Shown piece after piece: positions 34,523 through 42,388 of a DNA stretch of 64,000 nucleotides. The stretch is from positions 1,142,501-1,206,500 of the forward strand of contig CP003096.1 in assembly GCA_000233775.1 (NCBI GenBank), written 5' to 3'. Position 1 is the first letter of the stretch, and each line of letters starts with the position of its first letter. The notes beneath the pieces are model-generated. The model saw only the letters and a program-made list of their open reading frames with translations. It made no database searches and had not been told where the DNA came from. The position numbers and the translations under genes were made by a program. The DNA is from Thermovirga lienii DSM 17291. GTDB taxonomy: Bacteria > Synergistota > Synergistia > Synergistales > Thermovirgaceae.

Positions 34523-34600
34523 CGGGACGTAGCGCAGTCTGGTAAGCGCACTTGACTGGGGGTCAAGGGGTCGGAGGTTCAAATCCTCTCGTCCCGACCA
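34523..34600 (+). tRNA. tRNA-Pro(GGG)
   Basis: Acceptor CGGGACG pairs with CGTCCCG, followed by A and an encoded CCA. The anticodon arm is CTTGA-CTGGGGG-TCAAG, giving anticodon GGG (proline). The T arm is GGAGG-TTCAAAT-CCTCT. All arms fold. An intrinsic terminator follows at 34607. Confidence 0.95.
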
Positions 34601-34684: not shown

Positions 34685-35512
34685 GTGAAAGAGAGAGTAT
34701 GGAATCATAAGGCGAACACTAATATAGGACAAAACTTTCTAATCGATAAAAATATAGTACAAACTATATGTGAAGCATCCAACATAACATCAATGGACTC
34801 TATATTAGAGATTGGACCTGGAAAGGGCATTCTTACCACTGCACTTATACAATCTCCGGCAAAAAAGGTATATGCCATTGAGCTGGATGAAAGGCTTAAA
34901 GACATCTTATTACCCCTTGAAGAAAACAACGAGAAGCTCCAAATCTTCTGGAAAGACGCGTTAAAGTTCAATTACCGAGACATAGAACATCTAAGGCCTT
35001 ATCCTAACAAACTTATAGCTAACATTCCTTATCACATTACTACCCCTCTTATCTGGAAGCTATTAGAAGATGCTGCTCCTATGGGATTGAACTTCATGAT
35101 CCTTATGATACAAAAAGAGGTAGCAGAAAGATTGGCAGCAAGCGCTAATAGTAAAGATCGGTGTCCTCTAGGCATAACGCTAGAAAAAATGGGGCAGGTG
35201 TGCATACTGAAAAGGGTATCCCCAAATGTATTTCGCCCTAAACCTAAAGTGGATTCCGCAATAATAAAAATAGAGCTCATTGAACAGGATTTCCTAGCCC
35301 AAAATCCCACATGGAAAAAATTGCTGAAAGCCGCTTTCCATAAGAGACGAAAGACTCTGCTAAACAACTTAGTTTCAAGTAATCTTCTAACGAAAGAAAC
35401 TGCATCCGCCATGATAGAAGAACTTGGAATGAAGCCTACAGTAAGAGCCGAAGAACTTTCGATTCAACAGTGGACGTCCTTGCACGAAAGAGCACGGAGA
35501 TATTACCCTTGA
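34685..35512 (+). CDS. rsmA: 16S rRNA dimethyladenosine transferase
   Basis: RsmA (KsgA) dimethylates A1518 and A1519 near the 3' end of 16S rRNA. The 275-residue protein shows GQNFLIDKNIVQTI, the SAM motif EIGPGKGILTTALIQ, ELDERL and the catalytic NIPYHITTPLIWKLL motif (NLPY type). The start is GTG at 34685 with GGGAG seven bases before; no ATG is in a better place. The last 25 bases form the left arm and part of the loop of a terminator hairpin. Confidence 0.95.
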   Translation: MKERVWNHKANTNIGQNFLIDKNIVQTICEASNITSMDSILEIGPGKGILTTALIQSPAKKVYAIELDERLKDILLPLEENNEKLQIFWKDALKFNYRDIEHLRPYPNKLIANIPYHITTPLIWKLLEDAAPMGLNFMILMIQKEVAERLAASANSKDRCPLGITLEKMGQVCILKRVSPNVFRPKPKVDSAIIKIELIEQDFLAQNPTWKKLLKAAFHKRRKTLLNNLVSSNLLTKETASAMIEELGMKPTVRAEELSIQQWTSLHERARRYYP

Positions 35513-35586: not shown

Positions 35587-35862
35587 CTATTGAACCTTAT
35601 CCTTGAGAGCCTTTCCAGGCCTGAAAGCTGGAACCTTCTTACTTGGAATCTCAATGACCTTCGATGGGTCCTGGGGATTGCGCCCTGTCCTGGCTGCCCT
35701 GGTTCTAACCTCGAAGGTCCCAAATCCTACTAGCTGAACCTTATCTCCCTTGGCAAGAGCCTCTCCTATGGTTTCAAAAATTGTGTTCACCGCTTCCGCA
35801 GCCTGCTTTTTAGTGATTCCTGCGCTTTTTGCCACCGCACTTACCAGTTCCGTTTTTGTCAC
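35587..35862 (-). CDS. hup: HU-family DNA-binding protein
   Basis: HU bends and packs DNA in the nucleoid. The 91-residue protein opens TKTELVSAVAKSAGITKKQA and has GFGTFEVRTRAARTGRNPQDP, the HU signature with the DNA-binding beta arm. Only one HU gene is in the window. The start is GTG at 35862 with GGGGAG nine bases upstream. A candidate promoter lies in the der-hup spacer (35912-35940). Confidence 0.96.
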   Translation of the reverse strand: MTKTELVSAVAKSAGITKKQAAEAVNTIFETIGEALAKGDKVQLVGFGTFEVRTRAARTGRNPQDPSKVIEIPSKKVPAFRPGKALKDKVQ

Positions 35863-37287: not shown

Positions 37288-39108
37288 TCAATCCATCCAT
37301 ACTCTTATTTTAGGATAACCTTTATAAGATCTTGAAACATGAAAGAAAGGAATCCAAGCCTCTCTTAGCTGTTCCAATTGATATTCCTTCTTAGCTTTTA
37401 TCCAAAACTTGCCCGTATCTGGCTCCGGATCCATGTACTCAATACCCAGCCTTATGGCTTCATTTAGCATCTTTGCCTTCGTTTCGGGTTTGCCATCTAC
37501 CTCCAAAAGGTAGATCCACGGAGGAAGTTCAAGATCTTTTCTTTCCTGCAACTCATTTTTCCAAAAAATGTTCCAACCTGCTTTCAGGCCCTTTTGCCAA
37601 CCTCTACCTGGCTGTTTGCTTTGTAAAATTACCGTCCTTTCTTCAGCATGCTTCCCACACCAAAGGGAATCCCATAGCATTTTTATCGCTCTAAATCGAG
37701 CATCGTATAAAGGCCTTGCGTTCTCTATGTCGACATCAAGCCAACACACCAATTGAACAGGAATTTCATCACATACTTCTAATGCTTTTCTAGAACCAAC
37801 TACTATTCCACCCTCTTTTTTGAGAGTAGATACTATCTTCTTTAAGGAAGACCTTTCCCTTTCAATTCCTCCATGCCAGAAGTGTATTTTATCAGAACTG
37901 CCCAAAAGAGATTTAGCAATATCCAAAGCGGCCTCGGCACCAGGCTTATCTCCGATGAGCATAGGTGCTCCACACCTGGGGCAAATTGTGGGTTTGTCTT
38001 GGGCTTCCTTGCAAAAAGGACATATCAAAGCTGACTTAGACTCTTCCCACCTCAATGGGGCACCACATTTTTTACACATAGGTTTGTGGTCACACTCGGA
38101 ACATACAACAGCATTAGCATAACCCAATCTATCAAGGATCCATAAGGCCGCGCCTGCTTTATTAGTTACTTCTTGGGTTTTTTTCAGTATTAAGTCGCTA
38201 ATAGCCAAGGGGAATGCAACACCTTTTACACCAAACTTCCGCGCTGCCTTCGTATCCACCATAATAAGCCTCTTGTCTGGCCTCTCATGGCACTCAGGTT
38301 CCGCCAATTTAAACACTCTAGAAGAAGGAAAGTTTCCACCTAGAATCAACTCGGCACCAGCCATCTGTGAGCGTATTCCTGCAAAAGTCCTTACGTGTAG
38401 ATATGGATACCTTGCATTCATGTAGACGGGGTTACTTTCATCGTCAACTATGATCCTTCCGAGGTTTGGGAAGGGCAAAAACACAGCAACCCCAGTTCCT
38501 ACTGCAAATTTGATCTCTCCTTGTCTAATTTGCTCCCATTTTTCCCATTTTTTCTTTGCATTACCTGGTAACCATAAGGTTCCCCTCTCCCTAAGCTTTC
38601 CTTCTAGGCTCTCCCAGAAAATTTCAGCCTTCCGTCTTTCGGGGAATATTATTATAGACGAAAGGCCATCTTGCAGCAGAGTTTGCTTATAAAACTGCAT
38701 CCTTCTTTCATCAGGAACAATATAAGAGAAATTTAGACTTCTCCTTTTGGAGAAGTCTTTTCTGAAATCAACCTCTTTGACAGCCGTTCCTTTCAAGAAC
38801 TGGGTTGGAAAGGCAACCTTAAACAACTCACCTGGTCCACAATAGAAAAATCTGGCAGCCTTGCCTATAGAATCTAGAAGCTCTTCTGGTATAGATGGTA
38901 CGCTATCGACAACGCTTGCTATTTCTTTGATTTCAATTCTTTCTGAGTCAAATTTTTGTGCTTTTGCCTCCCATACTATACCTACCCTATGGCCTTTACC
39001 CAAAGGGACTATCACCCTTTGTCCCTTTCTTATTCCGGCTTTACCCTTGTACGTAAGAGGATGCCACCAGGGAGAGGGAAGAAAGACATCGCAAAAAACT
39101 TCCATCAT
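37288..39108 (-). CDS. priA: PriA-like primosomal protein N' with degenerate helicase motifs
   Basis: PriA restarts stalled replication forks. The 606-residue protein keeps the PriA layout: 3'-DNA-binding domain at the start (about 1-100, IPVQQ-derived start, PLGKGHRVGIVWEAK), the two four-cysteine zinc sites in the middle (CSECDHKPMCKKCG near 335 and CPFCKEAQDKPTICPRC near 360), and the C-terminal domain with ELQERKDLELPPWIYLLEVDG. The helicase motifs are missing: no Walker A (GxGKT) around residue 150, DEEH replaced by VDDES near 221, no motif V (GTQM) and no QVAGRAGR motif VI. This resembles actinobacterial PriA proteins that lack ATPase. ATG at 39108 overlaps the coaBC stop. Confidence 0.85.
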   Translation of the reverse strand: MMEVFCDVFLPSPWWHPLTYKGKAGIRKGQRVIVPLGKGHRVGIVWEAKAQKFDSERIEIKEIASVVDSVPSIPEELLDSIGKAARFFYCGPGELFKVAFPTQFLKGTAVKEVDFRKDFSKRRSLNFSYIVPDERRMQFYKQTLLQDGLSSIIIFPERRKAEIFWESLEGKLRERGTLWLPGNAKKKWEKWEQIRQGEIKFAVGTGVAVFLPFPNLGRIIVDDESNPVYMNARYPYLHVRTFAGIRSQMAGAELILGGNFPSSRVFKLAEPECHERPDKRLIMVDTKAARKFGVKGVAFPLAISDLILKKTQEVTNKAGAALWILDRLGYANAVVCSECDHKPMCKKCGAPLRWEESKSALICPFCKEAQDKPTICPRCGAPMLIGDKPGAEAALDIAKSLLGSSDKIHFWHGGIERERSSLKKIVSTLKKEGGIVVGSRKALEVCDEIPVQLVCWLDVDIENARPLYDARFRAIKMLWDSLWCGKHAEERTVILQSKQPGRGWQKGLKAGWNIFWKNELQERKDLELPPWIYLLEVDGKPETKAKMLNEAIRLGIEYMDPEPDTGKFWIKAKKEYQLEQLREAWIPFFHVSRSYKGYPKIRVWMD

Positions 39109-40331
39109 TTGCTGCACAGGAATCTCTCGTATATGACATCCCATATCTTCTCTGCCACAATGCTTTTAGAAGTTGATATTTCCAATAAAGTCTCATCTGG
39201 TGTCAGTAAGGTTACACTGTTGGTATCGGACGCAAATCCAGCGTTGGGCGCTGTAATATCGTTAAGCACTATCATATCTAAATTCTTGTTTTTCAGCTTT
39301 TTCCTGGCATTTTCGATGGGTTCGTTAGTTTCAGCTGCAAAACCTACAATTATCTGCCCCTTTTTCTTTCTCTTACCTAGCTCCGCTGCTATATCCCTAT
39401 TTGATATCAACTCAATAGAAAGAGTCTCTTTGCCTTCTCGCTTGATTTTTTGCAGCTGCTTCTCTTTAACTCGGTAATCACCAACTGCTGCCGCCTTAAC
39501 GATAATATCTGCTTCTTCCGCCCTAGCCAGCGTAGCTTCACACATTTCTTCGGCAGATACCACAGGTACTACATCTACACCATGAGGATAAGGTTCCGCT
39601 ACTGGACCACATATTACGGTTACATCTGCACCCCTATACCAGGCCTCCCTGGCGATTGCAAATCCCATCTTGCCCGAGCTGGGGTTTCCTATGTACCTCA
39701 CTGGATCAATGTATTCATAAGTCGGTCCTGCCGTTACTAGCACCTTCTTACCAAGTAGATTTTTCACAGGGCACGCCGCTTTCAATATTTCGTCTACTAT
39801 CACACCTATGGAAGGCAACCTTCCCTTGCCCTCATACCCACAAGCAAGTCTGCCCTTTTCTGGTTCTACCACTACGTAACCTAAATCTTTACATATCTCA
39901 ACATTTTTTTGTGTAGCTTTGTTGTCCCACATATTACTGTTCATTGAAGGAAAAACAACTACCGGGGATTGGGAGGCAAGAACTGTCGCAGATACAAGAC
40001 TCGAAGCGTCTCCATAAGCAAGTTTGTGTAACATTGAAGCAGAACAAGGAGCAATGGCTATAACATCCGCAGCACCTGAAAGGGTTATATGAGGTATCTC
40101 CCAACCCCTTTCATCAGAGAGAAAATCTTTCTCCAGGAACACTTTGTTCCCGGAGAGGACGGAAAACGTAAGAGGGGCCACAAAGCTCTCTGCTCCTTCT
40201 GTCATCATGACATGTACCTTCCACTCTTTTTTTACAAATTCTCTGACTATATCCGCAGCTTTATAAGCTGCAATTGCTCCCGTAATTCCTAAAATCAAGG
40301 TCTTTTTCTCTTTCCACGAAGCTACCTCCAT
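39105..40331 (-). CDS. coaBC: Phosphopantothenoylcysteine decarboxylase/synthase CoaBC
   Basis: CoaBC makes 4'-phosphopantetheine from phosphopantothenate in two steps. The 408-residue bifunctional protein has the FMN-binding CoaC half (about 1-185: LGITGAIAAYKAADIVR, the active histidine in WEIPHITLS, SMNSNMW with the asparagine, and GRLACGYEGKGRLPS) and the CTP-dependent CoaB half (about 190-405: KVLVTAGPTYEYIDPVRYIGN, AAAVGDYRVKE with the lysine cluster, and FAAET). ATG with AGGGG upstream. Confidence 0.95.
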   Translation of the reverse strand: MEVASWKEKKTLILGITGAIAAYKAADIVREFVKKEWKVHVMMTEGAESFVAPLTFSVLSGNKVFLEKDFLSDERGWEIPHITLSGAADVIAIAPCSASMLHKLAYGDASSLVSATVLASQSPVVVFPSMNSNMWDNKATQKNVEICKDLGYVVVEPEKGRLACGYEGKGRLPSIGVIVDEILKAACPVKNLLGKKVLVTAGPTYEYIDPVRYIGNPSSGKMGFAIAREAWYRGADVTVICGPVAEPYPHGVDVVPVVSAEEMCEATLARAEEADIIVKAAAVGDYRVKEKQLQKIKREGKETLSIELISNRDIAAELGKRKKKGQIIVGFAAETNEPIENARKKLKNKNLDMIVLNDITAPNAGFASDTNSVTLLTPDETLLEISTSKSIVAEKIWDVIYERFLCSK

Positions 40332-40390: not shown

Positions 40391-40594
40391 TTAGTCTCTC
40401 TTTGAGGCAGGAAGGATATAATCTAGCTTACCCTTAACGAACTCATCCAAAGCTGCCAATACGGGGTTGGCCCATCCAGCTTCAAACAACCTGGCTCCCT
40501 TGTCTTCACTTATCTGCCTCGCTCTTTTGGCTACAACCATCGCTGCCAAATATTTGTTCATTTCCTTATTTTCGCTTTCACCTCGAGACATCAT
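40391..40594 (-). CDS. rpoZ: RNA polymerase omega subunit
   Basis: Omega helps assemble RNA polymerase. The 67-residue protein has the omega pattern YLAAMVVAKRARQISE, the piece in the family's conserved helix, and ends LDEFVKGKLDYILP. Gene order gmk-rpoZ-coaBC is shared by many bacteria and supports the call. Two ATGs lie in a row at the start, either of which could be used. Confidence 0.88.
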   Translation of the reverse strand: MMSRGESENKEMNKYLAAMVVAKRARQISEDKGARLFEAGWANPVLAALDEFVKGKLDYILPASKRD

Positions 40595-40619: not shown

Positions 40620-41201
40620 TTAATTCTTTCGCATTTTATTTTTTACGTTTTCAAATATTTTTTCCAGCTCTTCTACTGCCTTCTTTAGGTCATCATTAAC
40701 GACTATGAAATCGTATTTCTTTGACTCCAGAATCTCTTTTTTTGCATTTTTGATCCTTTCTTCTAACTCTCTGTCATTTTCAGTTCCCCTGCGGTCTAGA
40801 CGTTTAATCAACTCCTCCTCACTTGGAGGCATGATGAAAATGAGAACCGCTTCGGGCATCTTGTTCTTAACTTGAAGGGCCCCTTGAACATCGATTTCCA
40901 GCACTATATCATGCCCTTCATCCAATAGCTTGCGCACATCAGACTCCAAGGTTCCGTAGTAATTACCGTGAACTTTGGCCCACTCCAAAAACTTATTTTC
41001 CTTTACATAGTTCATAAAGGTTTCCATATCTATGAATCTATAATCTACTCCGTCCCGCTCACCTTCTCGAGGTTGTCTTGTAGTACAAGAAACCGAATAT
41101 GTCAATCCCTCCATGCGTTTAAAAAGCTCTTTGCGCAAAGTCCCTTTGCCAACTCCACTGGGACCAGAAATGACGAAAAGGACGCCTCTTTTATTCTCCA
41201 T
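40620..41201 (-). CDS. gmk: Guanylate kinase
   Basis: Gmk phosphorylates GMP to GDP. The 193-residue protein has the P-loop [16 protein letters not shown], the GMP-binding STTR-type pieces [31 protein letters not shown] and VLEIDVQGA. The ATG at 41201 has AGGAGAAGGGAAGGA in front and is inside the end of remA; an in-frame upstream TTG at 41222 is not needed. Confidence 0.97.
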
Positions 41202-41451
41202 CTTCCTTCCCTTCTCCTTCAAAGCGCATAGTTATCGTTTCAGGTTGGAGCGCTGACAAAACAACGTGATTGCTGTCGGTTATTATGATCGCTCGCGTTT
41301 TTCTGCCCTCTGTGGCATCTATCAGTCTTCCTTGAGATCTAGCCTCGTCCTTCAATCTTCTTATAGGGGCAGAATTGGGGTGAATTATCGAAACGATCCT
41401 ATCTGCAACTACCATGTTTCCAAAACCTATGTGTAGCAATTTATTCTTCAA
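41191..41451 (-). CDS. remA: DUF370/RemA-family regulatory protein
   Basis: RemA (DUF370) binds DNA and controls biofilm matrix genes in Bacillus subtilis; in most other bacteria its role is not known. The 86-residue protein shows [20 protein letters not shown] and [24 protein letters not shown], both typical. The start is TTG at 41451 with GGAG nine bases upstream. It stands between yicC and gmk, its usual place. Confidence 0.92.
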
Positions 41452-41457
41452 GGCTCA

Positions 41458-42348
41458 TCACTCCACGTTCTGAATTTGTTCCCGCATACTCTCTATGGAA
41501 GCCTTAGCTTCGACTATTTCCCATCTTATATCCGAGTCACTTGCTTTTGAACCAATGGTATTAATTTCTCTATTGATCTCCTGGAGCAGAAAGTCTATTT
41601 TTTTGCCAGACACAAAGGCCTTTTCATATAAAAGTTCCCTTAATTTCTTCATATGACTATCCAACCGATCCAGCTCCTCAGAGATATCCCACTTGTCACT
41701 CAAGATGACTATCTCCTGGATTATTCTAGATTCGTCCGCCTCCACCCCCTGCTGAGCCAAAATAGTTTCAATCCTTTCTCTGAAGTCAGCAAGAGCTTTC
41801 TCTTTTACAAAATCCCACGTTCTGGCTATATTAACCAGCCTCTTCTCCAACTCTTGCACATATTTCAACACATCCCCTAAAAGATGGGAGCCTTCGACTT
41901 CCCGCATTTCATTCCAATTTACAAGGGCTGATTCGACCTGCCCAGTTAGTGCTTTAGCCACATCCTCAAATATTGTTTCTTTATTCTGTAAAGGGGGTTC
42001 CAAAACCCCAGGAAGCGTCAAAAGATGCTCTAGTCTTATATCACATCCCAAGGAGAACGTTTCGGATATTTCCTCTAGGTCCCTTATGTATCCTTCAAGG
42101 ACATTTTTATTGATGGTTGGAACACTGTACTGTGCAGACCAGCGAACATCTAGTCTAACAGTTATTTTGCCTCTGCTTGAATTGGCTTTCACGATGGAGA
42201 TTATCTGAGGTTCCAACCTCGCCAATTCTTTAGGTAGCCTAACAGATATTTCACTGTATCTATGATTGACACTGGAAACTTCGACTACTACAGTCCCCCA
42301 ATCATAAACCACCTCAGATCTTCCAAAGCCTGTCATGCTGCGAAACAA
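41458..42348 (-). CDS. yicC: YicC/YloC-family endoribonuclease
   Basis: YicC-family proteins are hexameric endoribonucleases. The 296-residue protein has the family opening FRSMTGFGRSEVV, SSVNHRYSEISVRLP, the central EARRIIQE-like piece VEADESRIIQEIVILSDKWDISEEL and the end GKKIDFLLQEINREINTIGSKASD. The start is the TTG at 42348, which has AGGGG nine bases upstream; an upstream TTG at 42378 would add residues with no family match. Confidence 0.92.
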   Translation of the reverse strand: MFRSMTGFGRSEVVYDWGTVVVEVSSVNHRYSEISVRLPKELARLEPQIISIVKANSSRGKITVRLDVRWSAQYSVPTINKNVLEGYIRDLEEISETFSLGCDIRLEHLLTLPGVLEPPLQNKETIFEDVAKALTGQVESALVNWNEMREVEGSHLLGDVLKYVQELEKRLVNIARTWDFVKEKALADFRERIETILAQQGVEADESRIIQEIVILSDKWDISEELDRLDSHMKKLRELLYEKAFVSGKKIDFLLQEINREINTIGSKASDSDIRWEIVEAKASIESMREQIQNVE

Positions 42349-42388
42349 AAAAATCGCCCCTTCCGTAGCCGAATCCAAAAAATAGGAT

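Follow-up and report, generated by a model that had tools for sequence, protein, structure and literature searches.

A predicted PriA pseudohelicase in Thermovirga lienii and its relatives across the Synergistota

Actinobacterial PriA (PRK14873) is reported to lack helicase motifs, and the Corynebacterium genome among our controls gave neither a PriA_C match nor a TIGR00595 match at 1e-45. PriA pseudohelicases have been published for Deinococcus-Thermus, where the protein of Deinococcus radiodurans carries Arg in place of the Walker A Lys, neither hydrolyses ATP nor unwinds DNA, and binds forks and DnaB (PMC4504706). Because of this precedent, the kind of protein described here is already known. 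In Escherichia coli, an ATPase-inactive K230A PriA is reported to load DnaB in vitro, and the PriA ATPase to be dispensable for PriA-PriB restart in vivo (PMC10175261).

The sequence analyzed here, hereafter referred to as the window, is a 64,000-nucleotide stretch of the genome of Thermovirga lienii DSM 17291, a member of the Synergistota (GenBank assembly GCA_000233775.1, contig CP003096.1, positions 1,142,501 to 1,206,500 of the forward strand). It contains an orthologue of priA by descent, in the usual operon position (Table 1), whose real start is probably the ATG at 39108, yielding a 606 aa form that overlaps the coaBC stop codon as ATGA. The initial annotation had identified the product as a PriA homologue, and this is borne out by the TIGR00595 model (E 1.5e-42, 146 bits), by a 3'-DNA-binding domain (3'BD; E 2e-15) and by a profile built from 50 relatives, which retrieves solved PDB PriA chains at E about 1e-93. 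The curated TIGR00595 cut-off (230) is not reached, and the PRK05580 model (168 bits) scores higher than the PRK14873 models (at most 100 bits), none of them attaining its cut-off. The 3'BD is the sole PriA domain that Pfam finds in the window protein, together with weak zinc ribbons; on E. coli PriA it finds 3'BD, winged helix, DEAD, Helicase_C, zinc ribbon and PriA_C. The closest named relative, at 66% identity, is a protein from a Thermovirga metagenome-assembled genome, whose last 600 aa are the same as in the protein of a same-genus genome in our set (G180).

The Thermovirga genome (2.0 Mb, 99.96% complete) holds one PriA homologue. A TIGR00595 search at E<=10 found no second PriA in it, and none with intact PriA motifs, the other matches being frames of 1044, 699 and 686 aa; the 699-aa frame passes the RecG cut-off, and the other two we take to be Mfd and UvrB. 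Upstream of priA the gene order is yicC-remA-gmk-[rpoZ position]-coaBC-priA. Bacillus shares the order gmk-rpoZ-coaBC-priA, and the Pusillibacter neighborhood resembles the Thermovirga locus except for coaBC. Across the phylum, coaBC lies immediately upstream of priA in 91 of 95 loci, three of the remaining four having fewer than 450 upstream bases. Elsewhere in the window, adjacent to der, are a tRNA-Pro (34523-34600, +), a ksgA-type rRNA adenine dimethylase gene (34685-35512, +) and a small HU-like open reading frame named by eye (35587-35862, -).

Table 1. Features of the priA locus of T. lienii, in window coordinates.
Feature	Coordinates	Strand	Remarks
priA-like gene, predicted pseudohelicase	37288..39144	-	longest ORF, 618 aa from ATG 39144
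Shortened C-terminal domain	37291..37506	-	no PriA_C match
Former motif VI, WDSLWCG	37654..37674	-	E. coli QVAGRAG; order-wide W-E-S-x-W-R-G
Former motif V, GSRKALEVCDE	37765..37797	-
Cysteine-rich region (CRR)	37972..38103	-	eight zinc-type cysteines, all in 96/96 rows
Former motif III, GGNFPSS	38320..38340	-	E. coli GSATPAL
Former motif II, VDDES	38434..38448	-	E. coli DEEH
Former Walker A site, YIVPDERRMQFY	38689..38724	-	Arg148 at catalytic Lys column; Arg in 96/96 rows
3'-DNA-binding domain, PF17764	38806..39090	-	E 2e-15, over cut-off; Asp17 equivalent is Thr
coaBC	39105..40331	-	directly upstream, overlaps priA; Flavoprotein and DFP matches
67-aa ORF in rpoZ position	40391..40594	-	name from position only
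gmk, guanylate kinase	40620..41222	-
remA-like gene	41191..41451	-
yicC-like endoribonuclease gene	41458..42378	-

The helicase motifs were assessed on an alignment of 96 rows (95 distinct) from 94 of the 173 genomes in which PriA was matched, hand-picked across genera, plus E. coli PriA; two of the rows are a named duplicate and the additional copy of genome G101. The two PriA-like copies of the latter (L063 and L100) lie on different contigs and both lack Walker A, and since its estimated contamination is 9%, two strains are likely present in that assembly. At the Walker A position the window protein reads YIVPDERRMQ versus GVTGSGKTEV, and across the alignment G-K occurs in no row and the Lys230 column is invariably Arg. 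The QxxGRxGR signature of motif VI is likewise absent from the window protein and from all 96 rows, and is replaced in most Synergistales by W-E-S-x-W-R-G; the column of the first motif VI Arg retains Arg in 83 rows and holds Cys in the window protein. Both losses had been claimed in the initial annotation and are upheld here. Its statement that the DEEH box and motif V are gone holds for the DEEH His, found in none of the 96 rows, but these motifs are remodelled rather than gone: in most rows motif II reads [DE][DE]E with S, A, G, N or C as the next residue, one Glu of the motif being present in 95, and the G-T/S of motif V persists. Motif III has changed from GSATP to GGxxPS in most rows. 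We also considered a displaced P-loop and rejected it, as the pattern [AG]xxxxGK[ST] occurs in place in no row and off-site in only three (L059, L062 and L095), that of L095 lying upstream of the chosen start. The recurrence of the same pattern throughout the alignment indicates that motif loss is not due to chance, and we infer that Synergistota PriA has lost the normal way of binding and hydrolyzing ATP.

The eight zinc-type cysteines (348, 351, 357, 360, 375, 378, 388 and 391 in 618-aa numbering) are kept, as the initial annotation had stated; the zinc-region model PF18319 has no match in the window protein and matches sequences L039, L040 and L043. Asp17, described as crucial for recognizing the 3' end (PMC4129139), has been retained in none of the 96 rows, 92 of which have Thr or Ser in its place. 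The winged-helix segment (E. coli 114-176 by Pfam) is deleted in the window protein; the initial annotation mentions neither this deletion nor the change at Asp17. In the Synergistota rows, the stretch from E. coli column 116 to column 216 is down to 4-26 residues, versus 99, which takes away the beginning of lobe 1 along with the winged helix; this loss was read from the alignment, the winged-helix model PF21213 being narrow enough to miss Bacillus and Rhizobium PriA as well.

The C-terminal part, initially taken to be intact, is not. The C-terminal domain of the window protein is about 20 residues short (E. coli columns 675-697) and has no match to PriA_C (PF18074), which scores 66-83 bits on E. 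coli, Bacillus and Rhizobium PriA; only the junction with lobe 2 (ELxERxxLxLPP) is preserved. At E<=0.01, PriA_C matches 3 of 185 Synergistota genomes and 9 of 14 controls, among them Thermotoga and both Deinococcota. The Arg that contacts the SSB tail, residue 697 in Klebsiella PriA (PMC4129139), is likely lost as well, although its column lies beside an alignment gap and is not secure. The initial annotation was thus largely right, in its motor motifs and zinc cysteines, and wrong about the C-terminus. The window protein shares with canonical PriA (E. coli, Bacillus) the 3'BD, two RecA-like lobes, the eight-Cys zinc region and the overall fold, but is devoid of Walker A, the DEEH His, motif VI, the winged helix, a complete C-terminal domain and Asp17.

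An AlphaFold2 model of the window protein (pLDDT 92.7, pTM 0.90) was compared with solved structures, and the superposition on PriA suggested at the outset returned a PriA fold: the highest-ranking PDB chain is E. coli PriA bound to a fork (8fak_H; TMq 0.81, 579 residues at 3.2 Å), with other PriA chains at 0.59-0.68. By VIA-align Z score, the winged-helix-deletion crystal form 6dcr_B (31.6, 7.0 Å rmsd) ranks above 8fak (28.5). The model of L039, from an outlying family, matches 8fak at TMq 0.82 and other PriA structures at 0.65-0.74, and by VIA superposes on 4nl4 at 3.1 Å over 532 residues and on 8fak at 4.4 Å over 582; because it fits several PriA structures about equally, the likeness to the fork-bound form is clear for the window protein alone. 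In 8fak, the zinc region is described as pivoted, with the pore opened around lagging-strand ssDNA and the PriB dock exposed (PMC10175261). The predicted structure suggests that the window protein may be a platform already in loading shape.

PriA homologues were identified in 173 of 185 Synergistota genomes, and in 114 of the 115 with at least 90% completeness and at most 5% contamination. The TIGR00595 cut-off is reached in four of the 185, all from two outlying families, and in L039-L043, sequences from outlying families, Walker A is missing too. In a 52-row tree, a well-supported branch (100/99) sets five canonical PriA sequences apart, which fits, without proving on five outgroups, a single motor loss predating the last ancestor shared by the sampled Synergistota, followed by further erosion in the Synergistales. 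Pooled pN/pS over seven close pairs is 0.19 for the 3'BD, 0.15 for lobe 1, 0.18 from lobe 1 to the CRR, 0.17 for the CRR, 0.11 for lobe 2 and 0.28 for the C-terminal domain, revealing purifying selection under which the dead lobes have been kept, lobe 2 most strongly.

As the genome encodes no second PriA, restart by a motor-less PriA and its partners is the natural reading. We consider it likely that the product of this priA orthologue is a pseudohelicase scaffold that recognizes forks and helps to reload DnaB, most likely together with DciA. Having retained the PriA architecture of 3'BD, two RecA-like lobes, zinc region and shortened C-terminal domain and lost the normal ATP cycle, the protein would bind abandoned forks or D-loops via the 3'BD, the dead lobes and the zinc region, and enclose the lagging-strand ssDNA; the zinc region and lobe 2 would then offer a docking surface for DnaB reloading, most likely with DciA, and a duplex lagging arm would be cleared by other helicases, namely RadA, RecG or a UvrD-type enzyme. 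The Thermovirga genome encodes RecG and RadA scoring over their curated cut-offs, as well as UvrD-family genes. With both the winged helix and Asp17 gone, the mode of fork recognition must differ from that of E. coli, and given the probable loss of the SSB-tail Arg as well, neither fork recognition nor SSB contact can be assumed. The initial proposal that restart here relies on structure recognition and loading partners instead of unwinding is therefore supported as regards a motor-less PriA with partners, by the single PriA and by the published precedents (PMC10175261, PMC4504706); structure recognition, for its part, is not simply preserved, given the loss of the winged helix that docks the parental duplex and of Asp17 in the 3'-end pocket.

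Candidate loaders were surveyed in the same genomes. DciA is found in 159 of the 185 Synergistota genomes and DnaD in one, the lone DnaD-domain (PF07261) match lying in a 322-aa frame that possibly belongs to a mobile element (G155:C131:16090-16302, L111). A DnaD-type loader is absent from the Thermovirga genome and was rejected. IstB/DnaC-family matches there number seven, all weak; the strongest falls in a 446-aa frame close to the start of the contig, probably DnaA, and another is a short match within a 324-aa frame. With DnaD absent and no DnaC or DnaI standing out, DciA is the most likely partner, to judge by co-occurrence. At E<=0.001 it has no match in 26 of the 185 genomes, some of them near-complete (e.g. 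G060, G069, G123), which may use another loader or encode a DciA too diverged to be detected. Controls, Caulobacter and Thermotoga among them, have DciA just as well, so it is not specific to the Synergistota type of PriA.

An alternative is that the PriA fold has been repurposed outside restart, for instance as a structural DNA-binding or regulatory protein, with restart proceeding by another route. Features linked with E. coli restart (the winged helix, Asp17, the helicase motifs) have indeed been lost, and lobe 2 has acquired a new order-specific signature, W-E-S-x-W-R-G, where motif VI stood. The gene is nevertheless single-copy, near-universal in good genomes and in its usual operon position, all eight cysteines persist, the top-ranking structure is that of fork-bound PriA, and no other PriA is available as a replacement; we regard repurposing as unlikely. 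Nor do we give much credence to the protein acting as a switch that still binds nucleotide, or hydrolyzes it slowly, with Arg148 substituting for Lys. The invariance of this Arg, the near-invariant motif II Glu and the retained length of the Walker A loop would accord with such a role, but the P-loop glycines are gone, motif VI is replaced, the pattern scan found no P-loop in place in any row, and in E. coli K230R is reported to abolish ATPase and helicase activity (PMC4504706). That the gene is decaying and functionless, as its low profile scores and several lost motifs might imply, is scarcely credible, being already contradicted by pN/pS values of 0.11-0.28 in every region, open reading frames and near-universal presence. 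A role in defense was also considered and rejected, there being no PADLOC match.

The motor-less scaffold favored here invites comparison with the Deinococcus-Thermus proteins. These likewise have Arg for the Walker A Lys, a degraded motif II and no PriB or DnaT (PMC4504706). For the D. radiodurans protein, the lack of ATPase and unwinding has been measured and the binding of forks and DnaB demonstrated (PMC4504706). When compared by description and domain matches, the Synergistota proteins differ in having motif VI replaced and the winged-helix segment gone; the PriA_C cut-off is exceeded in the two Deinococcota controls, and 182 of the 185 Synergistota genomes have no match. Deinococcota, Thermotogota and Synergistota form the kingdom Thermotogati (NCBI taxonomy), and this shared kingdom, together with Arg at the same position in Deinococcota and Synergistota, makes one ancient motor loss a testable possibility. 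Speculatively, the motor might have been lost once, by the Walker A Lys to Arg change, in a common ancestor of these two phyla. In the Synergistota, PriA would then have shed its winged helix, its 3'-end Asp and its canonical C-terminal domain and become a loading platform that is rigid, works without ATP and already has the shape of fork-bound PriA; a salt bridge from Arg148, at the old Walker A site, to Glu236, at that of motif II, might hold it in this form. We hold this full scenario to be doubtful. PriA was not found in viral contig searches, and a tblastn search of plasmids and phages gave PriA matches below 60% identity, with no Deinococcus or Thermus record among the matches listed.

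Full-text searching, which covered the matching literature in part, found no published account of a PriA pseudohelicase in Synergistota. As far as these searches reach, the presence of such a PriA throughout the Synergistota and its more advanced erosion there are new. That no aligned PriA keeps its motor, yet the gene is near-universal and under selection, would constitute natural evidence that the conserved job of PriA is recognition and helicase reloading. The Synergistota protein would also provide a compact PriA, free of both motor and winged helix, with which restart by DciA-type loading could be reconstituted, and it cautions against transferring the annotation "ATP-dependent helicase PriA".
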